From positions 2,096,566-2,160,565 of the forward strand of contig CANLPY010000001.1 in NCBI GenBank assembly GCA_947493165.1: DNA of 64,000 bases, given 5' to 3'. The notes beneath the pieces are model-generated. The model worked only from the letters and a program-made list of their open reading frames with translations, did no database searches and was not told the origin of the DNA. Made by a program: the position numbers and the translations under genes. The stretch comes from an uncultured Erythrobacter sp. Its GTDB lineage: Bacteria > Pseudomonadota > Alphaproteobacteria > Sphingomonadales > Sphingomonadaceae. The first letter of the stretch is position 1; each line of letters begins with the position of its first letter. Shown here one piece after another: positions 28,535-44,948 of the stretch.

Positions 28535-29172
28535 TTGATTGACTTCGGATATGCGTGGCGAGCGATAAAGGACTCGCATCCGAATGGTGTTCTAGGGACA
28601 GGCGATCAATAGCACTGAGCAGCGGTCAAGAATTTGACCCTCCGTGTCGAGCGCGCTTTTATAGCCCATCTCAGAGCCCCTGTTTTTTACAATCTTGCCC
28701 TCTGAGGTACGCAGCTGGCCGACGCACTCTCATCTATTTCGGCATGCGTGTCCTCTTTCAAATCTAATTACCGGTTGCAATGAGCCCGCTCAATGCAAGA
28801 CCTTGCCGCGCTGCTCGAGTGTGGGCACCGTAGAACATCAAGCCTGAACCACAGCATCATTGCTGATTGGCACCCGCAATAGCATAGGGCCAATTTCCCG
28901 TTAGTTATATAGATTGGACTGCGAAGTGCATCGACTCTGATGAAGCCTGTCTCATTGCGCAAGGTCACAAACAAGTGAAAGTGCAACTCGTGATGGTCGG
29001 CTGCATGGTTGAATCATCTTGCGAGCAATTAGAGTTTGCGGCCTTCATGAGTGCAGCCCTGACCTGATCAATGCTTTATTGTACAACCAGCCTGGCGCTG
29101 AACTTACAAACACAAAAAAGGGGCTGGATCGCTCCAGCCCCTTTCTAGATTTTCAAGCAGTCGAATATGCTC
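28535..29172. other. 638-bp stretch without a recognised gene
   Basis: Short frames exist on both strands (up to about 72 codons), but none shows a ribosome site or familiar motif. Structure seen: a long imperfect hairpin at 28544-28584 (TTCGGAT/ATCCGAA outside, GCGAG/CTCGC inside, 7-base bulge), and at the far end the intrinsic terminator of the OmpA gene. It may hold gene remnants or an unrecognised RNA. Confidence 0.5.
29115..29144 (-). terminator. Intrinsic terminator of the OmpA-family gene
   Basis: Perfect 12-bp stem AAAGGGGCTGGA (29117-29128) with TCCAGCCCCTTT (29133-29144), loop TCGC. On the minus strand it is followed by a run of Ts, 29 bp after the OmpA stop. Confidence 0.92.
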
Positions 29173-30294: not shown

Positions 30295-30476
30295 TCCAAT
30301 AATCCCCTTTACTTAGCGTTCTTGGAGCCAGTGGGGTCTCTAACTTTTCCCCCTCGCCGTTGCAAGCAGTCAATCATTGGGAACTGTTGCAATAAAGTCG
30401 CTATTGGGGGAGCCTGTCGTAAAAAAGGCAAGTCTCGTCATGTCGCTTTGTCTGGCGATGTGAGTTGGGCCTCAAG

Positions 30477-30947
30477 CTATGCTTCTGTATCGATCAATCC
30501 GAATGAGCGAAGGTTCTGAATAATCTCGTCAATTGCGTTACGGGCCTCCACATCGATAACACTTCCTCCTTGCGGGCTCGAAAGTGTATTGGGTGAAACC
30601 CAACCATTGAGAAACTGCAAAAAGACGCCAGCGCCTTGATCGAATATAAGTGCTCCATTGGTAGGAGAGATGAAGTGCCAAGAGCCGCCGATCCAAGCAG
30701 CGAGCTTATCACTTTCATCGGTCCATTCCGCAGTACCGGAGGTTACGCGAAATATTTCCCCTTCTGCCGGTGCTGGTGGAGGCGCGGACTGGGATGCAGT
30801 CACAGTTCGCGCCAATGTCGCATCAATCAAAGATAAGGCTTCGTTGACGAAGAACTCTTTTTGCGATTGCCCGCTAAATAATAGGGGCAATGCAAAATTT
30901 GTCGTCGTAGAGGGAAAGGCAAAAGGTTCGCTCATTGTCTGCTCCAA
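30477..30947 (-). CDS. DUF2793 domain protein at the end of the GTA cluster
   Basis: 156 residues. The opening MEQTMSEPFAFPSTTTNFAL leads into LPLLFSGQSQKEFFVNEALSLID, a signature of DUF2793, and later WIGGSWHFISPTNGALIFDQ. DUF2793 proteins are found at the tail end of phage and GTA clusters and are thought to be fibre or receptor-related; that role is inference. It follows gp15 by 9 bp. ATG 30935 (MSEPFAF) is an alternative start. Confidence 0.8.
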   Translation of the reverse strand: MEQTMSEPFAFPSTTTNFALPLLFSGQSQKEFFVNEALSLIDATLARTVTASQSAPPPAPAEGEIFRVTSGTAEWTDESDKLAAWIGGSWHFISPTNGALIFDQGAGVFLQFLNGWVSPNTLSSPQGGSVIDVEARNAIDEIIQNLRSFGLIDTEA

Positions 30948-30956
30948 AAATCTGAT

Positions 30957-33128
30957 TTATGACAGGTAAGCCAATAGGGTTGCCGGAGAGGTCGAGAACG
31001 TCCCTTGTTGTTTGACCCACAAATTGTTTGGTCCGTGGGTACTCACGAGATCGTCAAGCTCTGTTCGCGGAATTGATAATTCTGGCAGACTAGCAACCCA
31101 AGTTGCGATCGCGTCGCTTGTCGGCCCGAAACCCACGATATACGACTCGACGTCTTCGACGAGCGAGGTTTCGATCTCGTCTTCCCATAGCCATTGACCG
31201 CGCCCACGTCTCGTCCATGCGAACGCTACATCTCCGGTCGCATTTGAATTTTGTCTTGGATGCACTGGGGCAAGAGGCCGCCTAGACAAGCCGGGGTTCT
31301 CAAGCCGAGCGCTGACGGGGTTGGTGTCACCAAGGCCAATCGCGGCCAGCTTAGTAGCTGAGTGCGAAACCACCACTGATGGATCGAGTAAAAACAGCTT
31401 ATCGTCGATGAAGGTTAATGGTGTGCCGGCTGCGTGTCCCAAAATTGACGCATTTTCTGTTCCACCCCTTCCACGCAAAAGGCCAGATAGCTCCCATTGA
31501 GTTTCGCTGATTGGTTTAGCTCTTGCGAACTGCAGAACTTCTGCACCGATCCTAAGGCGATTCACCCCTTGGGCTAAACCAGCAATCGTAGTCTCCTCTA
31601 TGTTCGTTTCCGGAACTGATAAAACGATTGTCATTGTAGATGACGCTTCGAAATGAGTGCCCGAAGATGCTCCAAGATCATTGATGAGAATTCCGCTCAG
31701 GGCAGAGGTCTTGTCGCTTGACCCAAGCGACACCAAACCGTCCGCCTGTTCGACATACAGAGCAGCTCCGCGCCAACCAGAAGAACTTGAGGAGGTCGCG
31801 GCGAACATAAGCGGCCTTGCGGGCTCGCTACCGTTCTCTGCTGGCAACTCAAATGCATTAAGTACGGTAGGCCCAGCAATTGCATCCACTGGAGTATTCG
31901 CTGACCCTGGGTCGCTCGGAAGCCCATTCGAAATTTCGGGCGCCATTCGCGTCAATCGAAGTTCGACTCCTTTGTCCAACCATTCCCAGCTAGCAACTAT
32001 CCAAAATCCGCTTTGGCGAGGTACACGCACGACGCTTCCCGGTTTGATAGCCGGGTCAAGTTCGGCAAGCAGCCAAAGAGTTTGCTCTCCCTGCCAGCGA
32101 ACGCGCTGCGCAATCCTGTTAGCAAGAAAGCGAGCACCATTAGCATTCATTGTTGCTGGCAAATCAATCATTACCTCTTTGCCGCTCGATCTAAGGCCAA
32201 TGGCGCGTTGCACACCAGGTTGATAGTCGCGGGCCTCATCGTAGTAGCGCACGGACTGCGGTTCACGATTAGTTTGAGCACTGCGATTGCGATATTTGCC
32301 GGTCTCAGAAGGGTCCTTTAGTCTATCGGTGAGTTCCGGAACGCTTGAGCCTTCGATCTCAATCGTGTCTAACTGTAAACCCGTATTGGCAGTCACACAT
32401 GCCAAGGGAAGCACTCTGTCGATCACTGACAGCGTGCCAGATAAAGGTCCGCCTTGGTCTGCAAATCCATCAATATGCTTCAAAGGGTTTCTTGCGCCCG
32501 AGTTGGACGCTGACGGGGCAATATCACTTAGCGAAACAGAAGAAGGCTGGTTTCCAAGAACCTCAAAAGTCATAGCTGGTATGCGATTGCCAAACTCTGC
32601 TAGCTGCAAATCTTCAAAGACCACATAGGCACAATCTCTGAACGCCGTTGCGGTGCTGCCAACGGCTGCGGCAATAAGTGGGTCTGCTTGCTCATCGCCT
32701 TGCCCTCTGTAAACGCGGACATTGCCTTCTACCTTTAGGTCGCCAGCGCCGCCTCGCAATAGTTCTCCATCTGCCCAAATTCTGCCAACAGATGAGATGG
32801 GTTCGCTGCTGAGAGCAACGGCAAAAGATGAGGAATAGCTGTAAGTCTTGGTGGATGGTCGCCCTTTTCCACCACTAGTCTTTTCGGTTGATTCGATCAG
32901 GTCAGTGGACCAAATGATGGTTCCAGGTACGCGCATGTGGCCGAATATTCTTGAAATTGGTTGGCCATAGCTCGAAGTCGAAACCGCTAACTCTTGCAAT
33001 CTTGGCCCTTCGCGAGTGCCTGGACCAAAAATCGTTTGGTCAATTTGTTGACCAATGAGCGAGCCAATCGCACCGCCGATAGGGCCACCGACAGCTGAGC
33101 CCACTGCAGTGAGGATGATCGTAGCCAT
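30957..33128 (-). CDS. GTA tail tip/host-specificity protein (gp15-like, short form)
   Basis: 723 residues. The N-terminus (MATIILTAVGSAVGGPIGGAIGS, a glycine-rich hydrophobic stretch, then GPRLQELAVSTSSYGQPISRIFG) matches the start of Rhodobacter GTA gp15 and other tail-tip J-like proteins. The Rhodobacter protein is about 1,300 residues with a TIM-barrel-like domain after this region; that domain appears absent here, which accounts for most of the shortfall. Forms the tail tip with gp13 and gp14. Confidence 0.88.
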   Translation of the reverse strand: MATIILTAVGSAVGGPIGGAIGSLIGQQIDQTIFGPGTREGPRLQELAVSTSSYGQPISRIFGHMRVPGTIIWSTDLIESTEKTSGGKGRPSTKTYSYSSSFAVALSSEPISSVGRIWADGELLRGGAGDLKVEGNVRVYRGQGDEQADPLIAAAVGSTATAFRDCAYVVFEDLQLAEFGNRIPAMTFEVLGNQPSSVSLSDIAPSASNSGARNPLKHIDGFADQGGPLSGTLSVIDRVLPLACVTANTGLQLDTIEIEGSSVPELTDRLKDPSETGKYRNRSAQTNREPQSVRYYDEARDYQPGVQRAIGLRSSGKEVMIDLPATMNANGARFLANRIAQRVRWQGEQTLWLLAELDPAIKPGSVVRVPRQSGFWIVASWEWLDKGVELRLTRMAPEISNGLPSDPGSANTPVDAIAGPTVLNAFELPAENGSEPARPLMFAATSSSSSGWRGAALYVEQADGLVSLGSSDKTSALSGILINDLGASSGTHFEASSTMTIVLSVPETNIEETTIAGLAQGVNRLRIGAEVLQFARAKPISETQWELSGLLRGRGGTENASILGHAAGTPLTFIDDKLFLLDPSVVVSHSATKLAAIGLGDTNPVSARLENPGLSRRPLAPVHPRQNSNATGDVAFAWTRRGRGQWLWEDEIETSLVEDVESYIVGFGPTSDAIATWVASLPELSIPRTELDDLVSTHGPNNLWVKQQGTFSTSPATLLAYLS

Positions 33129-33133
33129 GCAGG

Positions 33134-33556
33134 TTATTCCTCTAAGTCATTGAGTAGGCGCCAGTGGCGCACAATATTATTGTTTGTCGCAGCCCGTTCA
33201 CAAACCACTTTTCTCAGCCCAGCATGCGCATGAATGAATTCCATGTGCTCTGAAGCGATCATGAGGTGACATTGTCCGGCCGACGGCGCTGATAAGACGA
33301 TGTCGCCTGGCCACGGATGGCCTGACGCGGGCAGCAGCCCCGAGCGCTCAGCGCATGATAGCCACCGTGCAAAATTGAGATTTCTTAGTCGATATCCGCG
33401 CGGTAAAATCGGACGAATACCGATTGCGCGAAGACTCACATCGACTAACCCAACACAATCCAGTCCGGTTTGCGGATCTCTACCATGCAAACGGAAAGGC
33501 ACGCCCAAAAAGGATTTTGCAGCTTCAACGAGCTGTTCACCAATTATAGAGTTCAC
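33134..33556 (-). CDS. GTA NlpC/P60-family cell-wall peptidase (gp14)
   Basis: 140 residues. The catalytic Cys lies in TGLDCVGL (near residue 34) and the His in the CHLMIASEHMEFIHAHAG region, the NlpC/P60 arrangement. Probably opens the peptidoglycan for DNA entry. Start overlaps the gp13 stop by 4 bases (ATGA); gp15 follows after 5 bp. Confidence 0.9.
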   Translation of the reverse strand: MNSIIGEQLVEAAKSFLGVPFRLHGRDPQTGLDCVGLVDVSLRAIGIRPILPRGYRLRNLNFARWLSCAERSGLLPASGHPWPGDIVLSAPSAGQCHLMIASEHMEFIHAHAGLRKVVCERAATNNNIVRHWRLLNDLEE

Positions 33557-34362
33557 GAGCGTCCGTATCGCGCCAGAAGGTCATTGCCAGGCAAGAAAGG
33601 CTCTCCCCTAAAATTATGAGAATTGCCAAATCTCCCTGCACACGTCGTGATGGTATGATCGCAGCCTTGCCGAAGCTCTGCTCGCGTCCCGATTTTGACA
33701 CCATCTGACAAAGGCCGATTGAGGACAAAGCCATCCTCACTGGTCGTGACAATTCGAAACGAAAGACCAGTTTGCGGCCCACTCAAGAAGCGAACCTTAC
33801 CGTCTGCAAAGAGTGACTGATCCAGATCAGCGAATTTTACGCTGTTAGTATCTAGATTGAGCGATACGACAGGATGCACTTGTGTGAATGAAGCTGCCGA
33901 AAGACCGCAACCAACACCGCAAAACTCTGCTCTGCACGTAGGGCTTGTACGAGGGACTAGGTCCTGTTCGAGCTCGGCCTTCACAGACCGAAGTTCGGCA
34001 ACAAAACCGCTTTCATTGTTTTCGATCCTGCCAAGTGTTCCTTGGAATACACAAGTGTGGGTCCGACCGATCCAATCGACCGCGCCAATCTCGATAGCTG
34101 CGGCGTCGTACAGGCCTGCGGCAAGTGCATCTTCCCGAATGGCTTCATGGCTTAGTGCGCCTTCTACTTCGGCATCATCATCAGCGATTTCGATCGTTCG
34201 CCGGATCGCTGCAGGCACCATGCCGGGAGCCGCATAATGGTTTATGCCGGAAAAATAGAGATCGCAGTCGTGGCTGGTGAAGCCAAGCGTCGTACCGTCA
34301 CTGCGGAAGACTCGCCAGTATGTCGCCACGGTATCGAGTTCACGGTCAAAGTAGACGCGCAT
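33553..34362 (-). CDS. GTA baseplate hub protein, DUF2163 (gp13)
   Basis: 269 residues. N-terminal RVFRSDGTTLGFTSHDCDLYFSG is the DUF2163/TIGR02218 signature, and the C-terminal region is cysteine-rich (CRAEFCGVGCG and GCDHTITTCAGRFGNSHNFRGEPFLPG). In Rhodobacter GTA the homologue is a hub protein holding an iron-sulphur cluster; the cysteines here are compatible. Its ATG shares one base with the gp12 stop (TGATG). Confidence 0.9.
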   Translation of the reverse strand: MRVYFDRELDTVATYWRVFRSDGTTLGFTSHDCDLYFSGINHYAAPGMVPAAIRRTIEIADDDAEVEGALSHEAIREDALAAGLYDAAAIEIGAVDWIGRTHTCVFQGTLGRIENNESGFVAELRSVKAELEQDLVPRTSPTCRAEFCGVGCGLSAASFTQVHPVVSLNLDTNSVKFADLDQSLFADGKVRFLSGPQTGLSFRIVTTSEDGFVLNRPLSDGVKIGTRAELRQGCDHTITTCAGRFGNSHNFRGEPFLPGNDLLARYGRS

Positions 34363-36686
34363 CAGGATATCTCGCGGACTTCAACAACAGGTATACTAGG
34401 TGCTTCACCTGCTTGGAAATTCAAACCTGACACATCGATCCTATCGTTTGCAAAACGCACGGGGACGTCGAATAGGAATCCAGCCCTTACTTCTGCACCA
34501 GCTGGCGCAGCCTCGTTCAGGATTAATTTGCCTCGTTCTCCTAGGGACCAATCGTTTGTTTCAAGACCGCCCACACTCACTTTGATCGTTTCCAAACGCG
34601 GTCTGGAAATCAATCTCTCTTGCTGGTCCGGACTGGTCCCATATCTCTTCAAAAGTTGGTATTCAGACTTCGATCCATCGCCGAGGCCGAGCAATTGGTC
34701 TGAGAAACTAGGAGACCCAGTCATTCCATTGGAACTAAAGTCATATGGATCGGTCAATCGAAAACCCCTCGCAGCACCGCGCCTGGCCCTGAAGAATTCG
34801 ATCAGTGTGGTAAGCTCACTTTCTGAACGGATGCCAGGTCCGATATCAAAGTTGAGGCGTGCATCGCTCCACAAAGAGTTGCGGCGTTCATGCCCGGAAG
34901 CCGTTACTGTGACCGACGTAGAAAATTCGGGCGCAACTGCTGTGTCGTTGCCAAGGGGGAGCGGAAATAGGACGTCATCGAAGGCTTGCATGGGATCTTC
35001 TCCGAAGTTGAGCAGGCGGGTGTATCCATCTCGAGCAACCTGCGGCAAAGCCCAGACAAACCGCCGTTCAATCCCGCGTTCGCGCGCTTCATCGAGGCCT
35101 GTATCAATGAGCTGCCATAGAGCTTCAGCGTCAGGAGGGCTGAGGACAAACCCAGACAAGTAGTCTTGCTTAGTAATAGGGTAGCCAAGCCACGAGTTCA
35201 CGAAGTCATAGGCCTGGCGCCGGGGACCCTGGGCATTGGCAGTCAACCAATCGTAATCCTCCAGCTGCAGGCGATCAAATGCGGGTAGGGCCCATCCGAC
35301 TGGTAGATTGGCCCGATACATTTCGGGTGTTTCAGGGTTCAAAATCGTCGGCGTAAACGCCAGTAGGAGTATTTCGGCATGACCATTTGTGGCATCGCGC
35401 ACTGCTTGCCCAAGCGATTGTGTGGATTGAGCCAACAAAGCGCCTGCTTGATCAAGGAGCGTAGTCTGGGCGATGCTCATGGATGCTTTAACATCGTTGA
35501 TTATTGGTGGTGATCCACCAAAAGCGGTAACGGCTGCGTTATCGTAGAGGCATATCTCGTTATCAGGGGTTACCCACCACCATGGCTCACCGATCTGAAA
35601 ACGTACAGGCAGCTGCTCGCCTTCCAAGAGCTCAGTGAATTTGGTCGCGCTGGTTTGCAGCCAAGCCATCGCATCGGCATTGGCAGGCGAAAGCAGTGTA
35701 GAAGGCGGAACCCACCCGGTCAGTGCTTGTGCACCGCTCGCAGTTCTTTGCTTCCAATCTTCAGGGCAATAGGCGTCAAACAGCTCATAGGAAATCGAAG
35801 CGATCGCCTCTAGTTCGTTTGCTTTGCAAGCTGCGAAAAAGTTCTGATGCCACGTCTCGGCAGGTGTACAGAGCACTCCGCTCTCGACGACGTTTAGTTC
35901 GCCTCCACCAACTTGTTCAAGCCGCATGAAGTGGCTCATCCCAACATAGTGAAGGACCTGCTCTCTATAGCCCAAGCCAACAATACTTCTAAGCAATCTT
36001 GCTGGTGTCTGATTATATGCATCGTCATATGCCGTTGCCATGCGCTCTTCATGCGGGGGCATCAGGATATCACCAATTTGAAGCATCGCATGCTTGCCGT
36101 CGGAGACTATGTTTGAGACGATCACATGCCCGTTTAGTCGCGACGCTAGCGGAGTTTGGCTTTGGGGCGAAAAGTTTGGCGCGACTACCGATATAAACAA
36201 TCTGTCGATATCGGAAGGATAGACGAGCTCGCCCGGCAATTCCCAACCGCTTTCCAGATTGGAAAAGGGTAAGGTGATCGTCGCATCGGTCGGTGAGCCG
36301 ATCGCGTAATTCCAAAGGCGTACATACCATGTGCGACGTTGGCCGCTCGCATCACGCCCCTCAATCGTTAGCGTCGGACCGCTGGCCTGATCCAGTGTCG
36401 CAACCCCTTGGGATTGCCAACGAAACGAAAGGCTCGTGTGGGAATAGTCACGACTAGCTTCGTAGGCGAGTAACGGATGGTCGAGCGTATCGACACTATC
36501 CCAGATCAGTCCGACCAGCTCTCCTTCGTGATGCAATTCCACATCGACGCGAAAGGCATCTGGAGCGGTTGTGACAATTGAACCCATCGCAGGACGTGGA
36601 AAGTCAATTGTCCAAAAGCGCGGATCGAACCGCTGAATGTGGCTCGATTCTTGGCCGCGACGCTCGCGGGCCAACCAAAATGACAT
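34362..36686 (-). CDS. GTA distal tail protein with large N-terminal extension (gp12-like, DUF2460 at C-terminus)
   Basis: 774 residues against about 210 for Rhodobacter gp12. Residues about 572-772 form the DUF2460/TIGR02217 domain (VLFPLPLGNDTAVAPEFSTS, GFRLTDPYDF). Residues 1-210 look like beta-rich tail structural sequence, and about 215-560 look like a TIM-barrel-like domain, with FQIGEPWWWV at 364-372 recalling a glycoside-hydrolase active-site strand. Sphingomonad GTAs carry this long form, and I recall database names of the non-contractile tail sheath type. Enzymatic activity is unproven. Confidence 0.85.
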   Translation of the reverse strand: MSFWLARERRGQESSHIQRFDPRFWTIDFPRPAMGSIVTTAPDAFRVDVELHHEGELVGLIWDSVDTLDHPLLAYEASRDYSHTSLSFRWQSQGVATLDQASGPTLTIEGRDASGQRRTWYVRLWNYAIGSPTDATITLPFSNLESGWELPGELVYPSDIDRLFISVVAPNFSPQSQTPLASRLNGHVIVSNIVSDGKHAMLQIGDILMPPHEERMATAYDDAYNQTPARLLRSIVGLGYREQVLHYVGMSHFMRLEQVGGGELNVVESGVLCTPAETWHQNFFAACKANELEAIASISYELFDAYCPEDWKQRTASGAQALTGWVPPSTLLSPANADAMAWLQTSATKFTELLEGEQLPVRFQIGEPWWWVTPDNEICLYDNAAVTAFGGSPPIINDVKASMSIAQTTLLDQAGALLAQSTQSLGQAVRDATNGHAEILLLAFTPTILNPETPEMYRANLPVGWALPAFDRLQLEDYDWLTANAQGPRRQAYDFVNSWLGYPITKQDYLSGFVLSPPDAEALWQLIDTGLDEARERGIERRFVWALPQVARDGYTRLLNFGEDPMQAFDDVLFPLPLGNDTAVAPEFSTSVTVTASGHERRNSLWSDARLNFDIGPGIRSESELTTLIEFFRARRGAARGFRLTDPYDFSSNGMTGSPSFSDQLLGLGDGSKSEYQLLKRYGTSPDQQERLISRPRLETIKVSVGGLETNDWSLGERGKLILNEAAPAGAEVRAGFLFDVPVRFANDRIDVSGLNFQAGEAPSIPVVEVREIS

Positions 36687-36703
36687 GATGCAGTGCTCCG
36701 CTT

Positions 36704-37279
36704 TTAGGCGCTTTGAAGTGCGCGGCGTACAGCGCTTGCGACTTGCCTTGACGACCGACGCATAGCTGTTGGCGCAGTTTGTCCTTGCGGCGCTGCTACC
36801 TGGATCGCGACCCTGACGTCACGGCCAGAAGACGCTAGGCTAGCGTTGGGCTCAACACGGCCCGAGCTGGTTGGCACAAACACTTCTGGTCCGCGCTCAC
36901 CAACTAGATAACTCGCGCCAGGGCTCACGGGTCCGCCGGTTGCGCGCCCTGGCAAGCCGAGCAGTGCGCCAAGTGACTGCCCCAATGCATCTCCGAAACC
37001 CGACGAACTGGAGCCACCGAAAAGGGAGCCAATCCCAGCAGTGATCGCATAACTTGCGATCTGTTCCAGCGCGGCAAAAGCGGTCTTTTTGAGGTCATCG
37101 AACCCAAGGCTGCCACTGCGCAACGCGGAGAGCAGTCCACGTTCTAGGACACTACCGGCCTTCTCAAAGCCATCCAACAAAGACGTATCCAGCGCTGATC
37201 GCATGACCTCCAAATCGGTGGCAAAACCATCAGTTGTAGCGCGTACGTCAATTGTCAGCTCTTCGATATTATCGTCCAT
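36704..37279 (-). CDS. GTA tape measure protein (gp11)
   Basis: 191 residues. Alanine/glycine-rich helical N-terminus, hydrophobic middle (YAITAGIGSLFGG), then GRATGGPVSPGASYLVGERGPEVFVP, the typical C-terminal motif of short phage tape measure proteins. The short length implies a short tail, as in Rhodobacter GTA. Start overlaps gp10.1 by 11 bp. Confidence 0.9.
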   Translation of the reverse strand: MDDNIEELTIDVRATTDGFATDLEVMRSALDTSLLDGFEKAGSVLERGLLSALRSGSLGFDDLKKTAFAALEQIASYAITAGIGSLFGGSSSSGFGDALGQSLGALLGLPGRATGGPVSPGASYLVGERGPEVFVPTSSGRVEPNASLASSGRDVRVAIQVAAPQGQTAPTAMRRSSRQVASAVRRALQSA

Positions 37280-37469
37280 CGCTATCAGCTTTCATAAGAG
37301 TGTTGAGTTGAGCCCGGTCGAACGAAGCCGTCGGTTCAGAATTCGGATTGTGCAGTGCCATTGCCAATTCGTCGGGAGTGGATGACCAAAAATCGTCTGG
37401 CCGCCAGCGTAGAAATTGCGCGGAGAGCCCGCACAATTGCGGAACAGTCTCAGCAAAGCTCTGGGTCAT
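37269..37469 (-). CDS. GTA tail assembly chaperone-like small protein (gp10.1, DUF2376/TIGR02216)
   Basis: 66 residues beginning MTQSFAETVPQLCGLSAQFL. The segment RWRPDDFWSSTPDELAMAL is diagnostic of this small family encoded between gp10 and the tape measure. Start 37469 overlaps the gp10 stop by 4 bp; the longer frame from 37598 lies inside gp10 and is not used. Confidence 0.88.
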   Translation of the reverse strand: MTQSFAETVPQLCGLSAQFLRWRPDDFWSSTPDELAMALHNPNSEPTASFDRAQLNTLMKADSDGR

Positions 37470-37780
37470 TTCTGACCCTTGAGGACCTGCGCTAAAATTT
37501 TGCGGATCGGTTTGGTCGCCTCCAATAGCCCCATCGCTATTACGCACCGGCCCAAGGCCTCTCGTGATGGGCGAGTGTTTGATGGGAGGCAGTGCCAAAG
37601 CAGCGCCGTTATCTCGGTGATGCTCAAGGCTCCCTGTGATGCTCTTTCAACCAAGCTAAATAGCGATCCTAGTTCCTCTTCCGCAGCGACAAGAGCCTCA
37701 AATGTCGGGCGCAGGATGTAACTCTGGCGATCAATTATAAGCTCTGCCTCGCCTCGCAGGGCGTTCGCACTGCTGCTCAT
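37466..37780 (-). CDS. GTA tail assembly chaperone (gp10 family)
   Basis: 104 residues. Contains GEAELIIDRQSYILRPTFEALVAAEE and an ITEITALLWHCL helix, matching the GTA-gp10 family. Overlaps gp9 and gp10.1 by 4 bp each side. Confidence 0.88.
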   Translation of the reverse strand: MSSSANALRGEAELIIDRQSYILRPTFEALVAAEEELGSLFSLVERASQGALSITEITALLWHCLPSNTRPSREALGRCVIAMGLLEATKPIRKILAQVLKGQK

Positions 37781-38184
37781 GCAGGCACCACTGGCCCCGA
37801 GCTCTCCAGCTGCAAAGTGTAATTGCGTTCTCCGTTGAAATCGCCCGAATAGTCCAAGCGCTGGACCAGAAAGCGGCCACGAAGTTTTTCGCCATCTTCG
37901 AAAGACAATTCATAGTCATCGACGGTTCCGGCTAGCGCGTGGGCTCTAACGCTGTTTTCTGCCGCGCTGCCGAGGAAAATACCTGCGGCACTCACCGAAA
38001 CAGAGCGCGTTCCAGCGCCTGATAGCAAATCGCGCCAGCCACCCGATTCTTTATGAGTTACAACAATTGTATCGCCGTTGATGCTCATTTGTGTCGTGCG
38101 CAGACCGGCAACGGTTTCGTAGGTAGGGGTTGATGCTCCGTCGCTGATTTTCAGCAAGAAGGCAGAGCCATTTTGTGCAGGCAT
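37777..38184 (-). CDS. GTA major tail tube protein (gp9, TP901-1 family)
   Basis: 135 residues. MPAQNGSAFLLKISDG at the start and KESGGWRDLLSGAGTRSVSVSAAGIF in the middle are characteristic of the TP901-1-type major tail protein. Polymerises into the tail tube around the tape measure. 5 bp after gp8. Confidence 0.93.
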   Translation of the reverse strand: MPAQNGSAFLLKISDGASTPTYETVAGLRTTQMSINGDTIVVTHKESGGWRDLLSGAGTRSVSVSAAGIFLGSAAENSVRAHALAGTVDDYELSFEDGEKLRGRFLVQRLDYSGDFNGERNYTLQLESSGPVVPA

Positions 38185-38189
38185 AGTGC

Positions 38190-38585
38190 TTACTCCGTAA
38201 TCGGTTCTAGGATGCGGAAACGGTATTCGATGAGCGCGCCGCGCAGGTTGTTCGGCCGCCGCTCGCTGCGTGCTCGTAGAAAGCGTGACGAGGCCAACTC
38301 AAACCCAACCTGTTCGCGTGCGAACAGTGATATTCGGCGCTCGATGGCTTCGACTTTCTCGGCATCAGCGGCTGGATCATCGGCTCGGCTTTCAAGCTCC
38401 AGAGCAATGCGGACTTCTCGGCCCGCGCGTTCCTTTGTCCCCCAGTCAGTCGAGGCGCTGGCGGCAATGCCAAGCCAAGGAGGGCTCGCACGTAGAGGGC
38501 TTTCTTCCTCGATTGCATTGATGTTCTGCAATGAGGGATCAGCCCGCAACCATTCTATTAACGCGGCGCGCAGGAGGCTTTCCAT
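38190..38585 (-). CDS. GTA tail terminator-like protein (gp8, DUF3168)
   Basis: 131 residues. DUF3168 features: LLRAALIEWLRAD opening, a WGTKERAGREVRIALELES core and the closing RGALIEYRFRI. Thought to cap the tail tube at the neck. Confidence 0.88.
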   Translation of the reverse strand: MESLLRAALIEWLRADPSLQNINAIEEESPLRASPPWLGIAASASTDWGTKERAGREVRIALELESRADDPAADAEKVEAIERRISLFAREQVGFELASSRFLRARSERRPNNLRGALIEYRFRILEPITE

Positions 38586-38590
38586 GTGCT

Positions 38591-38758
38591 CTATTTCCTC
38601 GTGAAATCAGGCCACAATGACGTGGCAGAGCGCCACACATGGCGCCCACTTCTTGAGTGTTCTTGGCGCTGCTTAGTGCGGCTTAAACCAGTTGTTTCGG
38701 CTCTCAATCTCAACCGCTCCGCAGTTTCGTGAAGTGCAGCTGATCGGGCGGTGATCAC
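38591..38758 (-). CDS. Small Arg-rich ORF in the gp7 (head-tail adaptor) position
   Basis: 55 codons from a GTG at 38758 whose last two bases are part of the gp6 stop (GTGA overlap), ending 5 bp before gp8. The sequence is basic, with about 12 Arg in 55. Rhodobacter GTA has a head-closure protein of about 110 residues here. This could be a shortened functional version, a remnant, or chance; the overlap start and tight spacing favour translation. No family recognised. Confidence 0.45.
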   Translation of the reverse strand: MITARSAALHETAERLRLRAETTGLSRTKQRQEHSRSGRHVWRSATSLWPDFTRK

Positions 38759-39303
38759 GCCAAGCTGACGCTACGCCAGGGACACCAAAGTGCCCTGACA
38801 GTGAGAGGGATCTCTGATGGAGTTGATTGGTCGCGGTCGCGATATTGATGAGCGGCCAGCCTTATAATCCCTTGGCGCAGCGGTGCTGGTAGTGTCGCCC
38901 AATTGCTTGCCAATCCGGTTTGGACTTCAAAAATGACGGCCCGAGCATTCTCGGGTGCACTGATGATGCAAATGTGCGCGCGACCAGATGCGCAAATGTC
39001 GACCTCATAGCGTTCCGCCTGGAATGGGCGGCGAGTGCCATTAGCCTCAAGCACTTCTGCCGAATTGACTGCAATAACCGGCTTTGAGGCCAGTCTGCTG
39101 TGCCCCGCTTGTGCAGCTACGCTTTCTTCTACGCTCACTTGCATAGGCATTTGTCCAATGAAGGCTTCGCATAATTGGGCTGAGCAATTAAGCAGGTCAG
39201 TCAGGGCATGATCCTCGGAATTGCGAGTGATGCTGAGCCACGCTTTTAGATCGCTAAGCGCTGCACCACTGAGGTCGGCAGGTGTCACAATAGTACGCCG
39301 CAT
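38755..39303 (-). CDS. GTA head-tail connector protein (gp6)
   Basis: 182 residues. Helical N-terminus (SDLKAWLSITRNSEDHALTDLLNCSAQLCEAFIG) typical of gp6-like connectors, and a C-terminal LRQGIIRLAAHQYRDRD segment. Binds below the portal in the neck. 138 bp separate it from the capsid gene. Confidence 0.88.
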   Translation of the reverse strand: MRRTIVTPADLSGAALSDLKAWLSITRNSEDHALTDLLNCSAQLCEAFIGQMPMQVSVEESVAAQAGHSRLASKPVIAVNSAEVLEANGTRRPFQAERYEVDICASGRAHICIISAPENARAVIFEVQTGLASNWATLPAPLRQGIIRLAAHQYRDRDQSTPSEIPLTVRALWCPWRSVSLA

Positions 39304-39392
39304 TGCGGTCTCCAGAATGGTTGTGAAATAGAGTGCACCCGCGCCGCTCTGGTCGGCGGGAGGGGCGCCGTTGGCGGCGCGGGCGCGGTGTG

Positions 39393-39428
39393 CCGGCGAG
39401 GGAGCAAGGGGCTACTCAACCTCGCCGG
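39393..39428 (-). other. Hairpin between capsid and connector genes
   Basis: Perfect 9-bp stem CCGGCGAGG/CCTCGCCGG with an 18-base loop, 14-49 bp after the capsid stop on the coding strand. No T run, so more likely an RNA-stability or processing element than a terminator. Confidence 0.5.
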
Positions 39429-39441
39429 GTTATCGTTTCGA

Positions 39442-40590
39442 TCAGGCCTCGATCTTGAGCAGCTTGATCGCGTTGCTATCGAGCACTTTGCCGCCGATCC
39501 GCTTGGTCGCGTAGAAGTGGACGAAGGGCTTATTCGTGAACGGGTCACGCAAGATCTGTGTCGCGCTGCGCTCCGCGATCAAATAGCCGTGGCGGAAGTT
39601 ACCGAAGGCAATTGGGAAAGTGCCTGATGCGATATCCGGCATATCTTCAGCCTCCACCACTGGATAGCCGAGTAGCCGATCCGGCTGACCTTCAACCATG
39701 CCAGGCTGCCACAAGAAGGCACCATCAGCAGTTTTTAGCTTTCGCACTTCTGCAAGCGTGGCTGAGTTCATTACAAAGCTGGCGCCCTGACGATGCCCAG
39801 ACTTCATGGTGTGGATCAGATCGATCAGTTTGGCGTCTGGCGCACCATCAAACCCGCTGGCATCGCCTGAGCCTAAATATTGCAAGGTTCCGAAGGCCCG
39901 AACGCCGTCTTCGCCGATACCATTGGGCGCTGAGAGGAAACCTTCAGGCTGATCAGAACCCGAGCCGGATACAAAGGCTGCACCTTCTGCACGTGCGAAT
40001 TCGCTGGCAATCTCGCTAGAAAGCCAGCGTTCAAGGTCGAAACCTGCATCGTCCAGCATCGATTGGCTCGCTGCTGGATTGGCGTACAGATCACCGGTTG
40101 GCGGTGCGATTTCAGCAAATTCTGGCGCGTCTGTTTCAGGACGAGAAGCAGTTTCACTCACCCAACCAGAGGCTGTGCCGCCAGTCGAAACCAGCTTGCG
40201 ATAGCCTGCGCTGCCAGTTTGCACCACTTGAGCGATGCTGCGGATCGGGCTGATTTCTGCCAGTTCAGCTGCGATCAAAGCATCAATCTCGCGAGGCACC
40301 GCATATCCGCCATCAGTCGGAACTGCACCGCTAATCGATTTGATCTCACTTTCGTTGCCGCGTCGCAGATAGCCGTCCACAAAGCCTTTCACTTCGCCTG
40401 ATGATTGCGCATTGCCCATCGCAGGGCGCGAGGCTGCACGGGACACTTTATCAAGGCGAGCCTTCACTTCATCGACATCTTGGCGAAGTCCCGTGATTTC
40501 GGTTTCGGCTTTGTCTTGACGAGCGACGATGTCGAAACTCTCTTCCAGTTGAGCTTCGGGCTGAGTTTTAGGGATGGGTGTGATTTCCAT
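39442..40590 (-). CDS. GTA major capsid protein (gp5, HK97 fold)
   Basis: 382 residues from ATG 40590 (MEITPIPKTQPEAQLEESFD). The N-terminal coiled-coil scaffold-like delta region (about 10-80) is normally removed by the prohead protease; mature HK97-fold sequence follows (GAVPTDGGYAVPREIDALI, AAFVSGSGSDQPEGFL, GYPVVEAEDMPDI). The open frame also has an ATG at 40617, but that codon abuts the T run of a terminator hairpin and has no ribosome site, whereas AGAAAGG precedes 40590. The most abundant particle protein. Confidence 0.93.
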   Translation of the reverse strand: MEITPIPKTQPEAQLEESFDIVARQDKAETEITGLRQDVDEVKARLDKVSRAASRPAMGNAQSSGEVKGFVDGYLRRGNESEIKSISGAVPTDGGYAVPREIDALIAAELAEISPIRSIAQVVQTGSAGYRKLVSTGGTASGWVSETASRPETDAPEFAEIAPPTGDLYANPAASQSMLDDAGFDLERWLSSEIASEFARAEGAAFVSGSGSDQPEGFLSAPNGIGEDGVRAFGTLQYLGSGDASGFDGAPDAKLIDLIHTMKSGHRQGASFVMNSATLAEVRKLKTADGAFLWQPGMVEGQPDRLLGYPVVEAEDMPDIASGTFPIAFGNFRHGYLIAERSATQILRDPFTNKPFVHFYATKRIGGKVLDSNAIKLLKIEA

Positions 40591-40617
40591 GGGGCATGCA
40601 ACCTTTCTGTTGGGCAT

Positions 40618-40642
40618 AAAAAAGGCCGCCCCGTTGGCGGCC
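40618..40642 (-). terminator. Intrinsic terminator-like hairpin between prohead protease and capsid genes
   Basis: On the minus strand, a perfect 7-bp GC stem GGCCGCC/GGCGGCC with a 5-base loop, followed directly by TTTTTT. It lies 28 bp after the protease stop and 28 bp before the capsid ATG. Meets the formal description of a rho-independent terminator inside the operon. Confidence 0.75.
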
Positions 40643-40669
40643 GGTTGGGAAATGGGACTTGATTGGCAG

Positions 40670-41074
40670 TTAGGTAACGAAATGAACGCGGGCGCTGTGC
40701 TGAAGCGGGTGGCTAACCAAGCTCACTTCAAACAAATCAATGCCTAGCAATTCACGACCTTGTTCGGACGAGCGAAATTCGCGTGCGCGATAACCAAAAC
40801 TTAGGCCGCTGACCTCGCTGGCCTCGAGCAGTTTTGCAGCGCGGGAGGCAACCATGTCGATCCGAGCAATTACGCGAAGTCCTCGTGCGTCTTCGACAAT
40901 ACTCTCTATTTCGCCAATTTTTTGATCTGGCCGGTGTTGCCATAATAATGGCAGCGGATCACAGCGTTCACTTATCGTCTTGACGAATGCCCCGCGGCGG
41001 ACGGTGTCTTGCGATGCGTCAGGAATATCAAAGACGCTTGCATAGCCTGCGAAGCGGATTGATGCCTCAGTCAT
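40670..41074 (-). CDS. GTA prohead protease (gp4, HK97 family)
   Basis: 134 residues. Matches HK97-type prohead proteases: RFAGYASVFDIPDASQDTVRRGAF opening, the LLWQHRPDQKIGEI His region and GLSFGYRA with the catalytic Ser. Shorter than free-standing proteases, as in GTAs. Overlaps the portal gene by 4 bp. Confidence 0.92.
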   Translation of the reverse strand: MTEASIRFAGYASVFDIPDASQDTVRRGAFVKTISERCDPLPLLWQHRPDQKIGEIESIVEDARGLRVIARIDMVASRAAKLLEASEVSGLSFGYRAREFRSSEQGRELLGIDLFEVSLVSHPLQHSARVHFVT

Positions 41075-42231
41075 GGGAATGCTCCGTCTGGTCGAATGCC
41101 TAGCAATTTGCGCTTTTCCTCATCGCTTAGGAAATCAGCATCCGACACCTGTTTCCAGAGTCGCTCACGGTCTTCTGAGAGCGCGGGGACGCGGTCCAGA
41201 TCAACCGACAGCTCGCCATCTTTGAACCACGGTCTTAGGCCTTCATCCAAAGCCGAGAATATTTTGTCAGCAAGAGGCAGCAGAGTCAGCCTCCACAGCG
41301 CGCGATTTGCCTCACGATAATTGGAGTACGTGTTATCCCCCGGGAGCCCAAGCAACATTGGTGGTACGCCGAAGGCTAGGGCAATATCACGAGCTGCAGC
41401 GCTTTTCAGCGTCGCGAAGTCCATATCGGCAGGAGAAAGCGCCATGCTCTGCCATTTTAGCCCGCCATCCAGCAGCATTGGTCGCCCTGCATTGGTGGAC
41501 CCTGAAAATGCCGTGGCGAGCTCGTCTTTCAGTCGCTCTAATTGGTCTGGTGACAAGGCCATTCCATCATCAGAATCGTAAACCAAGGCACCAGATGGCC
41601 GCGCAGCGTTTTCTAGCAGCGCTCTATTCCATTGAGCCGCGGCATTGTGGACAGCGATGGCTTGATGGGCCGCTGCGAGTGCACCTGCGCCATATAAGTC
41701 TTCGACAGGATGCATCGCCTTGATATGAATGATATTAGGCCAGCCATTGTCATCCTCGACAGAAATCTTGCTCGCCACCTCACCAGGCCGATACTCGTAT
41801 GCGCATGGCCAACCATCCCCTCCTGATTTGATGGTGACACGATCAGGCCGGAGAGCGAACAGTTCAACTGGCGTCCCTGAACCATCTTTGATGATTTGAA
41901 CGAAACTGTTGCCGTGGAGCAAGACATGTGCGGCAATAGTCTCAATCAATGATTGGCCCGCACTTGTAGCTGTGACCAGCTGCCTAAGATCGGAGTCGTT
42001 TGCAGTAAGCGGAGATTGGCCTACCCCTTCCGCAACGATCCTGACAGCGCGCTGTGCAATTGGGTTGCTAACAAAGCCATCACGAATTGCCCGGTTATAT
42101 TCATAACCCGATCCGCTTTGCCCGGTGTCAAATGCTGGAGCCCAAGTGGGCAGAAAGCTCGGTGCCAATGGTGCACGTGCATCTTTGCCACCCTTAAAGG
42201 CGGCAGCGATTGTTTCTAGCAAGGCCATCAA
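41071..42231 (-). CDS. GTA portal protein (gp3, HK97 family)
   Basis: 386 residues. HK97-type portal features: NPIAQRAVRIVAEGVGQSP, HVLLHGNSFVQII, and the C-terminal stem region with ARDIALAFGVPPMLLGLPGDNTYSNYREANRALWR. Forms the dodecameric DNA gate at the capsid vertex. Starts 14 bp after TerL. Confidence 0.94.
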   Translation of the reverse strand: MMALLETIAAAFKGGKDARAPLAPSFLPTWAPAFDTGQSGSGYEYNRAIRDGFVSNPIAQRAVRIVAEGVGQSPLTANDSDLRQLVTATSAGQSLIETIAAHVLLHGNSFVQIIKDGSGTPVELFALRPDRVTIKSGGDGWPCAYEYRPGEVASKISVEDDNGWPNIIHIKAMHPVEDLYGAGALAAAHQAIAVHNAAAQWNRALLENAARPSGALVYDSDDGMALSPDQLERLKDELATAFSGSTNAGRPMLLDGGLKWQSMALSPADMDFATLKSAAARDIALAFGVPPMLLGLPGDNTYSNYREANRALWRLTLLPLADKIFSALDEGLRPWFKDGELSVDLDRVPALSEDRERLWKQVSDADFLSDEEKRKLLGIRPDGAFP

Positions 42232-42245
42232 AGTTCCTTTTGTAG

Positions 42246-43571
42246 TCAGATTGACAGGACGCGTGGTCTGCTGGCCCGACCAAGTAGTAATTCGGTTAGG
42301 CCCCAGACGAGCGCATCGGCACGATCGGGGCTGCGACCTGCCCCTGCATATTCGCCGCCAGCTTTAAGGTTGCACATTTCATCTTCGAGCTGGGGGAAGT
42401 GCCCGCAATGCTTGACGCGTCCAGTTTCATAGAGCGCTGCAATGGGCTCAGCCCGCGCAGCTTTTGATCTGCTTGCATGCACCAACTTTATTGGCAGCTG
42501 ATGGTTCGCAGCGCGCAAGACGCTTGCAACCATTGAGCCGCCTTGATTGGCTTCAGCTACAACTCTGTCAGCCGCCCACTCTTCAGCTGTAAGCGCGACG
42601 CGGCGGGCCCATTGTTCAGGACTTGGTTTTTCTATTGAACAGTCTGCTAGCACATAGGCTTTACCGTCAATGCCGAGCGCGACCGCAATAATGCCGCAAG
42701 CATCACCATTCGATGATGCGGGTGGATCGACTGCGACGACGACACGCTTTATTTCTGCAGGGTTCGGTGATGTGCGAGATTGTTCTAGGAGAGCTCTGTT
42801 CCAAAGAGCGCCTTCGACATCCTTTAACAATTCACCGGCGATTTCTTGACGTGCTAGCTGACTGTTGCCGAACTCTTCCTTAATCGCTGTCAGAAATCGA
42901 TCTGGCAGATTGGCTGAATTTTCGTAGGTGTTCCCACGCGTTACGGCTGTCGCTCCTTCATCTTCTTTCTCTAGCAGTCGTCTAATGAGAGGCACACTGC
43001 GCGGGGTGGTGGTGGCCGTAATGCGAGGATCGTCGCACAGCCTCATCCCCATCAGTAGGTTGTCCCAGCATCGTGTTGCGCGGTCGTGCGCTAGCGGCCA
43101 TTTACCAATCTCATCGCACCAGGCGTGCGAATGTTGAGGGCCGCGGAGCGCGTCAGGCTCAGAGGCAGAAAACAATTGCGCTTGTGCGCCATTTGCGAAT
43201 TTGAGCCGCCTTAAAGAAGACTCGAAAACTGGCCGCCGCTCTGGAGGGCAGCATGCAAGAATTCCGCTTTCGCCTTCTACCATCACCGCGCGAGCTTCCG
43301 CCAATGATGTCGCAACAAGTGCAATCCGGGCTTTGGGATTGCTCTCAGCAATAGACCGGACCCACTCTGAGCCAGCTCGTGTCTTCCCGAACCCGCGACC
43401 TGCGAGAACGAGCCAAACCCGCCAATCACCTGATGGCGGCAATTGAGCGCTGCGCGCGAACAAAGCCCAGTGATAGGTGAACTCTGCGCGCTCCTGTTCG
43501 TCAAAAGTATGAGCGAGCGTGTCCCGAGCATAAATCGGTGCATTGGTCAGCCAATCGAGAGGCTCTTTCAA
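42246..43571 (-). CDS. GTA terminase large subunit (gp2)
   Basis: 441 residues. Walker A AGRGFGKT (57-64), Walker B-like AWCDEIGKW (150-158), motif III region ATTTPRS near 186-192 and the RNase H-like nuclease Asp in VAVDPPASS (D282). The ATP-driven motor that packages host DNA at random in GTAs. Overlaps the upstream small protein gene by 4 bp. Confidence 0.95.
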   Translation of the reverse strand: MKEPLDWLTNAPIYARDTLAHTFDEQERAEFTYHWALFARSAQLPPSGDWRVWLVLAGRGFGKTRAGSEWVRSIAESNPKARIALVATSLAEARAVMVEGESGILACCPPERRPVFESSLRRLKFANGAQAQLFSASEPDALRGPQHSHAWCDEIGKWPLAHDRATRCWDNLLMGMRLCDDPRITATTTPRSVPLIRRLLEKEDEGATAVTRGNTYENSANLPDRFLTAIKEEFGNSQLARQEIAGELLKDVEGALWNRALLEQSRTSPNPAEIKRVVVAVDPPASSNGDACGIIAVALGIDGKAYVLADCSIEKPSPEQWARRVALTAEEWAADRVVAEANQGGSMVASVLRAANHQLPIKLVHASRSKAARAEPIAALYETGRVKHCGHFPQLEDEMCNLKAGGEYAGAGRSPDRADALVWGLTELLLGRASRPRVLSI

Positions 43572-44029
43572 CTTTCGTCCTCTTGAGGTGCGCGGGGCTC
43601 TTTAACTCTCGATCGAATGTCTTCAATCTTACGATCAATTGACGCTCGGATTTCCTCTGCGGTTACGCTGCGCTGAATACTTTGAGCAGTCGCTGCACTC
43701 TCGCGATGATAGTTCAAAAGACGCATAGCATTGGCGAAATCATATTTGGTTTCGTCGGCTGCCTGTTGGTCCCCGTGACGCAACCTTCGGAGCAATTCCA
43801 TCTCTAGTCGCGCATACCCTTCTTCTAACGCGGCTTGCCAGTTTTCTGCGAACTTGGGGTCATTTGCCTTCGCCTGATAAACGGTTTTTTCGCAAACGCG
43901 AGCGGCTCTCGCCGCGCATGAAACGTCTGAAGTCAATGCGAGTTGTTGGATAAAGGCTTTCCGCCAATGCGGATTTTTGCGACAAGATGGAGCACAGACA
44001 ATTGCACGCGATCGCGCTTCTTGAGCCAT
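43568..44029 (-). CDS. Putative small terminase subunit (gp1-like)
   Basis: 153 residues. RKAFIQQLALTSDVSCAARAARVCEKTVYQAKANDPKFAENWQAAL reads as a helix-turn-helix of the type found in small terminases, and the C-terminal third is helical and charged. First gene of the GTA operon, with ribosome site GGAGA and ATGA overlap to terL. In Rhodobacter GTA the small terminase has lost specific packaging-site recognition; whether that holds here cannot be read from the sequence. Confidence 0.82.
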   Translation of the reverse strand: MAQEARSRAIVCAPSCRKNPHWRKAFIQQLALTSDVSCAARAARVCEKTVYQAKANDPKFAENWQAALEEGYARLEMELLRRLRHGDQQAADETKYDFANAMRLLNYHRESAATAQSIQRSVTAEEIRASIDRKIEDIRSRVKEPRAPQEDES

Positions 44030-44122
44030 TGCCGTTCTCCAGATTATTGGGGTACGAACGTTGAGTTTTGCGGGAGCAGCCTTGGCTAACGACGCCGACT
44101 CACACTATCGCGATGTTGAGTT

Positions 44123-44151
44123 CTTCTAACCAAATAGCGTGACAATGTCAA
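44123..44151 (-). promoter_or_regulatory. Predicted promoter of the GTA operon
   Basis: On the minus strand, a perfect -35 TTGACA (44146-44151), 17-bp spacer, and -10-like TAGAAG (44123-44128). The implied start is near 44116, giving a leader of about 87 bases before the first GTA gene. Motif match only. Confidence 0.6.
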
Positions 44152-44267
44152 TACAAAAGTGCCAAATGGGTTATTAATTTGCAGTTGCGTGACCTATGCA
44201 GGTGCATTACGCGGCACCGCTATAGAGCGCTGCACCCGGCGTCTCATCGCCTGAAAGGTGTCGAATA

Positions 44268-44933
44268 TTGGCTTGGCTTCGTGGTCTCTACAATTGGACG
44301 ATGGATAAGGCGTCCCACCCGCAAGCGGTTTGGTGGCTCGCTTTCTTCTGCTTTATCGAATCTAGCTTTTTCCCAATCCCGCCACATCCCTTGTTGGGAT
44401 TGATGTGCTTAGCTGAGCCGAGGAAAGCCTTGCGGTTCGCGATGGTCGCGACGGTTGCGTCGGTGCTCGGCGGGCTGTTTGGTTATGGAATCGGATATGC
44501 GCTCTACGAAACTGTTGGCGTACCGCTGCTCACTGCTATCGGATTGATCGACAGCGTACCTGCCGCACAATGCACGTTTAACGAATATGGGGTGTATGCG
44601 GTAACGATCGCCGCAGCCACCCCGGTTCCCTTCAAACTCCTGACCATCACAGCGGGGGCGCTGCAAATGGACTTGGTCCCATTCATGCTCGCGTCAATTG
44701 CTGGCCGCGCGCTGATTTTTGTTACTGTCGGGCTGCTGTTTCAGTTTTTCGGGGCGCCAATCAAGCGCGTCATCGACAAGTATCTTGGGACTGTCACCAC
44801 GATTTTCGTGCTGCTAGTCGTCGGTGGATTCTTCGCCATTGCACAGCTAGGCGGCGACAACGACAACGCAAATGACGGAAATACTTGCGAGGTAGCTACT
44901 CAGATCAGCGTGGAAGAGCCGGAAACGAGCTAA
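44268..44933 (+). CDS. yqaA: YqaA-family small VTT-type inner-membrane protein
   Basis: 221 residues with about four or five TM segments. FIESSFFPIPPHPLLGLMCL and the GYGIGYALYETVG region place it in the YqaA/SNARE-associated (DedA-like, VTT) group. The C-terminal tail is acidic and soluble. The TTG at 44268 is preferred because GAAAGG lies 9 bases upstream and the family retains the LRGLYNWTM segment; ATG 44301 would remove it. Role in Sphingomonadales unknown. Divergent from the GTA operon. Confidence 0.82.
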   Translation: MAWLRGLYNWTMDKASHPQAVWWLAFFCFIESSFFPIPPHPLLGLMCLAEPRKALRFAMVATVASVLGGLFGYGIGYALYETVGVPLLTAIGLIDSVPAAQCTFNEYGVYAVTIAAATPVPFKLLTITAGALQMDLVPFMLASIAGRALIFVTVGLLFQFFGAPIKRVIDKYLGTVTTIFVLLVVGGFFAIAQLGGDNDNANDGNTCEVATQISVEEPETS

Positions 44934-44948
44934 CGCCAACGCCGCACG

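Follow-up and report, generated by a model that had tools for sequence, protein, structure and literature searches.

A putative RcGTA-type gene transfer agent cluster of an uncultured Erythrobacter sp. and a widespread deletion at the same locus

We analysed a stretch of 64,000 nucleotides (the window) from an uncultured Erythrobacter sp., C1:2096566-2160565 of a 2.97-Mb genome, whose minus strand carries a compact cluster of 17 open reading frames (ORFs) at 30477-44029, running from a small terminase (TerS) gene to a DUF2793 gene, with host genes on both sides. The cluster is very probably a domesticated, mainly vertically inherited gene transfer agent (GTA) of the type known from Rhodobacter capsulatus (RcGTA), in the sphingomonad variant form, the full allele of which coexists in the family with a non-producing deletion allele. 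It has the gene content and domain architecture of such an element, its frames are intact and under purifying selection, and it occupies the same locus in many relatives.

Family matches in Pfam, NCBIfam, PHROG or PDB were obtained for 16 of the 17 genes, and the gene order and strand are as in RcGTA, whose order we take to be TerS-large terminase (TerL)-portal-protease-capsid-adaptor-terminator-tube-tape measure-distal tail-hub-peptidase-megatron; homologues of TerL, portal, capsid, tail, hub, peptidase and megatron all stand in that order. The matches of the capsid (E 1.7e-85), the portal (E 1.4e-74) and the gp12 barrel (E 2.8e-163) are too strong for the identity of the cluster to be due to chance. 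No integrase, repressor or replication family was detected by a Pfam scan of the cluster ORFs and the ten flanking ORFs, and no direct repeats of at least 16 nt bracket the cluster within 28000-47000; within these limits, the integrase, attachment repeats and replication genes by which an active prophage would be recognized were not detected at this fixed site between host flanks. There is no tRNA in the window. The G+C content of the cluster (0.52-0.57) lies inside the range of the window. The original prediction, made from the letters of this stretch, had described a complete minus-strand GTA cluster from a TerS-like gene to DUF2793, in RcGTA-type order, between host genes and free of integrase, repressor and replication genes, and had named attachment repeats beside an integrase as grounds for abandoning it; this layout was borne out, and its completeness holds in the sphingomonad sense but not in that of RcGTA, there being no RcGTA-type g7, no g3.5 and a gp15 without the peripheral block. 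The features of the locus are listed below (window coordinates, strand, description).

29173..30294, minus, OmpA-family host gene, conserved neighbour (OmpA-family match in 41 of 41 relatives)
30477..30947, minus, DUF2793 gene (PF10983, E 4.2e-16)
30957..33128, minus, g15, short "megatron" without peripheral block (matches Rcc01698 1-204 and 988-1246)
33134..33556, minus, g14, NlpC/P60 peptidase (PF00877, 24.1 bits, cut-off 23; TIGR02219 only 25.6 against a cut-off of 81.9)
33553..34362, minus, g13, baseplate hub (TIGR02218, 174.9 bits, cut-off 80.5)
34362..36686, minus, g12, with NCTSP_N (17-205), TIM barrel (210-555) and DUF2460 distal tail domain (570-771)
36704..37279, minus, g11, short tape measure-like protein (phrog_30701, E 9.8e-53, and several tape-measure phrogs)
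37269..37469, minus, tail assembly chaperone, TAC_6 (PF09550, E 1.2e-13, residues 52-107 of ORF 37269-37598)
37466..37780, minus, g10 (PF11836 GTA-gp10, E 1.6e-19)
37777..38184, minus, g9, tail tube (PF06199, E 1.9e-42)
38190..38585, minus, g8, tail terminator-like (PF11367, 43.1 bits, cut-off 24.5)
38591..38758, minus, 55-residue ORF at the g7 (stopper) position (GTG start overlapping the g6 stop; C-terminal W..A..LWP motif)
38755..39303, minus, g6, head-tail adaptor (TIGR02215, 64.8 bits, cut-off 39; phrog_442)
39442..40617, minus, g5, HK97-fold major capsid protein (PF05065, E 1.7e-85; RcGTA capsid 6tba_C5, E 4.3e-81)
40670..41074, minus, g4, prohead protease S78 (PF04586, E 1.8e-23)
41071..42231, minus, g3, portal (PF04860, E 1.4e-74)
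42246..43571, minus, g2, TerL (Terminase_6C/6N)
43568..44029, minus, g1, TerS (phrog_4044 terminase small subunit, E 6.6e-12)
44030..44267, intergenic between TerS (minus) and the VTT gene (plus), presumed promoter region (from the sequence)
44268..44933, plus, VTT-domain protein, host flank
44949..46181, minus, aminotransferase, host flank

The TAC_6 gene overlaps both g10 and g11; its start was placed at the ATGA overlap with g10, and it is nested (at about 37269-37469) inside the longer ORF 37269-37598. Position 44151, at which the region originally outlined ends, falls in the TerS upstream region. Host genes further out include those for Hsp33, QueC, a response regulator and DksA, among others.

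We then determined how far the cluster is shared and how it is inherited. A search for gp12 homologues, of which the best 80 loci of 586 confirmed candidates were kept, gave as the closest named records Erythrobacter and related genera, and among the loci longer than 22 kb in this set all nine tested marker genes were present in 56 of 57 and an OmpA match in 40 of 57. In the genus the cluster adjoins this same OmpA gene. Of 16 genomes sampled from other families of the order, 9 have, by coordinates, an OmpA-like gene no more than about 10 kb away from a GTA gene; three of the nine were matched by a partial gp12 or the capsid alone. Loci with a capsid gene, which we call full, made up 36 of the 78 examined (window included); gene order was verified in four of the full loci and gene presence in the rest. 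The ratio of nonsynonymous to synonymous substitutions (dN/dS) per gene was 0.01-0.31 in three close full pairs, indicating purifying selection, while a fourth pair was too distant for most genes. In trees of 27 full clusters the internal gene sets inA and inB had 17 of 24 splits in common, with 1 of 16 well-supported splits conflicting, and the internal genes and the two flanking genes had 9 of 24 in common (patristic r 0.81). The agreement of the internal genes, together with the weaker agreement with the flanks, argues for inheritance that is mainly vertical with some exchange.

By homology to RcGTA, a few cells would use TerS and TerL to fill HK97-type heads with host DNA. The tail would be short and altered at its distal end, and with the N4-like TIM-barrel module that gp12 contains it would bind polysaccharide of the cell surface and perhaps degrade it; the hub, the peptidase and the short gp15 would open the envelope, and release of the particles would depend on host lysis genes located outside the cluster. 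Particle production, delivery of DNA and enzyme activity are inferred from that same analogy.

Several observations weigh against the identification as a domesticated GTA. The trees of flanking and internal genes conflict at 4 of 10 well-supported splits, and in 6 of the 35 other full clusters some gene has a stop inside the match or low coverage. An RcGTA-type stopper, g7, is not at its place between g6 and g8, which is taken by the 55-residue ORF, and gp15, at 339 bits, stays below the curated GTA_megatron (NF048004) cut-off of 800 bits and so outside that family. The DUF6456 and holin families, discussed below, are present in genomes without the cluster too, and particle, packaging and transfer are predictions from the genes. 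A cryptic, inactive RcGTA-related prophage remnant, kept by chance only, would agree with this last point and with the loss or breakage of the locus in much of the genus (114 genomes), but it seems quite improbable, given that all window ORFs are open, that dN/dS in the close full pairs is low, that the same neighbour recurs across genera and families of the order, and that neither an integrase family nor a bracketing repeat turned up within the limits stated above. Vertical inheritance, as originally predicted, holds in the main (patristic r, OmpA neighbour) and is qualified by the conflicting flank splits and by a clade of truncated alleles from three genera; "probably functional" has the intact ORFs as its one basis, the DUF6456 and holin families not being diagnostic. 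Of the checks then proposed, dN/dS gave the low values above, the G+C content stays in the range of the window, and the genome search gave a gafA-like gene and a GTA holin gene.

The second half of the main finding concerns the loss of the cluster. The capsid gene was present in only 7 of 24 sampled genus mates, while an OmpA-family match was present in all; of 13 capsid-less sites that were fetched, six keep TerS, a TerL stump and DUF2793, four keep other remnants and three have no GTA gene. In 114 genus genomes TerL turned out to be full-length in 56, to end at about residue 150/151 in 30, to be otherwise truncated in 3, to be cut by a contig end in 3 and not to be found in 22; this tally was made by hand, the absences are upper bounds, and some of the 22 are incomplete assemblies. 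One genome (G015) has gp12 although TerL was not found, and at least 3 of the 56 with full-length TerL have inner deletions. For the genus, this puts the share of genomes with a deleted or missing cluster at up to about half.

Of the 30 genomes with the common TerL edge, 28 join it to DUF2793 codon 25 and 2 to g13. The common deletion, of about 12.2 kb from TerL codon 151 to DUF2793 codon 25, is therefore found in 28 of 114 genus genomes, about a quarter. By homology with these 28, its left edge, at the W of HSHAWCDE in TerL, lies at window position 43120/43121 and its right edge at 30875/30876, so that 12,245 bp would be missing in the window. In all 28 genus DUF2793 junctions the TerL end, which reads CAYGC except for one CATTG and one CATGG, is separated from GGN CAR by five bases. 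These were first read by a pattern of fixed spacing and then again with free spacing, which gave 5 nt throughout in 25 of 27 genus loci and in two extra contigs (G298, G282); the junction of L165 was read by eye, and L283 runs out where its contig ends, the junction of that genome being covered by another of its contigs, L401. Outside the genus, the same junction was found at 20 loci from 12 genera, with a spacing of five bases at 19 of them and of six at the remaining one; in six of the 20 its glycine codon is an alanine codon (35 of 347 genomes were picked by E-value, 30 matched, and 20 junctions were readable). No repeat or microhomology beyond 1-2 nt exists between the two deletion edges. 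Other internal deletions in the genus were seen once each, with different edges: L316 (G237), L323 (G289), L173 (G019), L169 (G020) and L300 (G305).

An artefact of assembly, or of the removal of predicted viral regions, would explain why contigs end at the junction in three assemblies; it is very improbable, as the junction is continuous in six single-contig genomes (G021, G003, G277, G274, G294, G253), with the same spacing and species-specific flanks. A homing endonuclease or intein at TerL W151|C152 was likewise considered and rejected: in 22 genomes with a split or partial TerL, in-frame splits occur near residue 270 or 77 and none at 151. In another genus, the TerL of L366 (G368; ORF 694-2577, plus strand) is interrupted after Walker A (query residue 77) by about 180 residues of repetitive sequence inserted in frame.

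We then asked how the deleted state is distributed on a tree of the OmpA and aminotransferase genes, built from 55 of the 78 loci, 32 of them full and 23 truncated: those in which both flank genes are present and which either are full or have the common left edge. The state changes 18 times on this tree, at least 14 changes being forced by supported branches, and shuffled labels gave a mean of 17.8 changes, with 313 of 500 shuffles as low, that is, no phylogenetic signal; a single clade of deleted loci was rejected (approximately unbiased test, p-AU 0.002). The flanks of truncated loci group with their full sisters in three separate trees, and sister-specific residues (QFSHA, QHTHA, KEPFIN) occur as close as about 10-20 nt to the junction. 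Among the truncated stumps from other genera, those of g182, g249 and g253 group with full genes of the same genus (starred), and those of g258, g246 and g227 do not group by genus. The truncated TerL genes L357 (G615), L358 (G544), L359 (G605) and L360 (G575), from three genera, form one well-supported (starred) clade, so that at least one transfer of the null allele between genera is probable. Spread by long recombination tracts from other species was rejected, the left and right flanks of the truncated genus genomes following their full sisters; counter to that rejection stand this three-genus clade and the three groups of stumps that do not follow genus.

The reading that we consider likeliest is that a single, old GTA-null allele persists alongside the producing one. 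In its strongest form, which we put forward tentatively, a single ancient null allele would have persisted through speciation and the formation of genera in the sphingomonads, that is, as a trans-species polymorphism of producers and non-producers. Non-producers would stay recipients of GTA DNA, and GTA-sized fragments from producers would overwrite the sequence on either side of the 12-kb gap, right up to it, while being too short to fill it; such overwriting would explain the species-true flanks, the unrelaxed selection and the partial refilling of g13-g15 (about 3 kb) in two genomes. In these two, G307 and G264, the same TerL edge continues in frame into g13, with g14, g15 and DUF2793 present, and the junction of the common deletion, TGCCGGGCAG, resembles the native g13, TGCCGAGCAG, at that place. 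A crossover at the g13-like motif between the deleted allele and an incoming producer fragment of about 3 kb would yield this form, which favours, we infer, one common allele recombining with full-cluster DNA over a cutting hotspot. Three assemblies suggest coexistence of the two alleles, as their contigs break off where the paths of a full and a deleted allele would diverge in the assembly graph. G547 has a contig ending in CACAGCCATGCCTG and one beginning with GCCGGGCAGG, and G455 has the contig ends CATAGCCATGC and TTGCCGGCCAGG; in G298 one contig stops at the junction and another carries the deletion, with an overlap of about 140 nt. TerL beyond codon 151 was not found in any of these three assemblies.

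Several of the same observations would also suit repeated, precise, site-specific and perhaps regulated excision between TerL codon 151 and DUF2793 codon 25, among them the variants that full and deleted sisters have in common within about 10-20 nt of the junction, the at least 14 forced changes with the rejection of one clade, and the contig ends at the junction in G298, G455 and G547. We give such excision nearly the same probability as the single ancient allele in its strongest form. Against it, the two sites have no repeat or microhomology beyond 1-2 nt, the cluster encodes no recombinase, no insertion occurs at codon 151 in the 22 genomes with split or partial TerL, and the g13-type deletions of G307 and G264, through the g13-like motif at the junction, could have come from the deletion allele. 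What probability remains falls to other mixtures, repeated introgression included.

The remnant left by the deletion, TerS, TerL(1-151) and DUF2793, could itself have been domesticated and be under selection, for instance as a decoy for packaging. Selected pairs of truncated loci gave omega values of 0.02-0.46 for TerS, the N-terminal part of TerL (TerL-N) and DUF2793 where measurable, without a stop (in several, dS was above 1 or saturated, and the broken L280 and L297 were outside the pairs), and median omega for TerL-N was alike in full-full (0.221, 99 pairs), full-truncated (0.221, 220 pairs) and truncated-truncated comparisons (0.208, 96 pairs); for TerS the respective values were 0.390, 0.359 and 0.349. 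However, DUF2793, its frame open, has no in-frame ATG or GTG start at 14 of 43 junctions and the frame is broken in 3 of 27 truncated genus loci (L165, L280, L297), so the remnant is not clearly functional; moreover, the TerL fragment loses Walker B, and low omega is equally expected from young deletions or from flanks refreshed by full alleles. Selection on the remnant is thus improbable, and young deletions or refreshed flanks fit better.

The window cluster is a full-length sphingomonad GTA of a known kind with a variant tail tip, and the broader finding is the common null allele. A "conserved prophage" of Sphingomonadales was already predicted to be RcGTA-like by GTA-Hunter (PMC6821227, in the part available), and Kogay and Zhaxybayeva (PMC10883770, likewise in part) suggested that lineages with pseudogenised clusters may have become cheaters recently. 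A main open question about GTAs is how such a trait, lethal to the cells that produce the particles, can withstand cheaters, and the null allele turns the cheater idea into a direct test: one exact junction, standing beside full clusters in the window genus and several other genera, can be counted by polymerase chain reaction or read mapping in any population. Among the papers listed by our searches, no title or opening of an abstract describes such a common deletion, though truncated forms may already stand in Viswanathan et al. 2017, and neither the deletion nor the changes in gp12 and gp15 appear in the accessible portion of Kogay et al. (PMC9765227).

The tail tip departs from that of RcGTA, the solved chains of which (PMC7296036, as far as available) match the window capsid, the C terminus of gp12 and the ends of gp15. 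Window gp12 is a single chain of 774 residues, compared with 210 in RcGTA Rcc01695, in which an N4-type tail-sheath/TIM-barrel module is fused to a distal tail protein; both its NCTSP_N and its TIM-barrel_NCTSP domain score over the cut-off (barrel E 2.8e-163). In coliphage N4, a podovirus, the non-contractile sheath is made of two separate proteins, gp64 and gp65 (9lc0, 9yf5; PMC12633501, available part), whereas here one chain combines it with a siphovirus-type distal tail domain. Barrel residues E367 and E476 are invariant in 32 sequences and kept in N4 Gp64, and the fold resembles those of beta-amylase, GH35 and PgaB; gp12 is possibly a polysaccharide-degrading tail module, and by analogy the module might form a sheath around the tail and bind the receptor. 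Conversely, gp15 has 723 residues against 1304 in RcGTA and is without a peripheral block of about 570 residues (about 230-800); PF13547 gave no match in it even at E 10. Homology of the gp12 barrel to the megatron was rejected (best blastp E 0.064, hhalign probability 0.2), and on this comparison we claim no relocation of one domain; the megatron is not among the VIA-align matches listed for gp12, which is no proof of absence. With gp12 and gp15 so rearranged, the tail tip of sphingomonad GTAs cannot safely be modelled on the RcGTA structure. Also different from RcGTA are the extra DUF2793 gene and the lack of g3.5 between portal and protease.

At the stopper position, RcGTA has a g7 of 112 residues and the window the 55-residue ORF, predicted to form a long helix (structure model, predicted local distance difference test score 76). 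A mini-ORF, filtered as 40-75 residues with a WP pair, was found at this place in 71 of 72 relatives having gp6 and gp8, and W42, L48, W49 and P50 are invariant in 36 aligned sequences (the window plus sequences with an ATG start chosen from the relatives, WP having been a filter criterion). In view of its conservation, a first interpretation as a decayed g7 was dropped. In the available part of PMC9765227, g7 homologues are reported in 7 of 55 Sphingomonadales and a short replacement family in 11 genomes, and for the other 48 genomes unknown genes at the g7 locus in 22 and none in 26, the latter in contrast to the mini-ORF in nearly all of our relatives. The mini-ORF is probably that replacement family, missed elsewhere by annotation, and since g7 is known to vary in Sphingomonadales, its lack is not decisive for membership among GTAs.

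The window genome also contains the kind of activator and lysis gene expected outside a GTA cluster: a gafA-like DUF6456 gene at G000:C1:941017-941397 (minus) and, about 9 kb away, a host-encoded GTA holin gene at 950087-950455 (plus). A DUF6456 gene turned up in 24 of the 25 genus genomes, a member of the holin family in 40 of 41 relatives; gafA homologues are reported in 196 of 208 genomes in the portion of PMC9765227 available. Given their presence in cluster-less genomes, the two families are no proof of a working GTA, and they may have another role where no GTA head-tail gene is present. The DUF6456 gene is more than 1 Mb from the capsid gene in the window genome and only about 3-10 kb from it in G025, G027, G030, G033, G035 and G039, which belong to other families.

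Two gp12 matches have one internal stop each, L085 (G001) and L094 (G033), the open frame of the latter spanning only 526 residues, possibly in a decayed cluster. Finally, 80 "viral" contigs of IMG/VR (the best kept; L195-L274) carry this gp12 at 60-70% identity and look like host GTA clusters filed as viruses.

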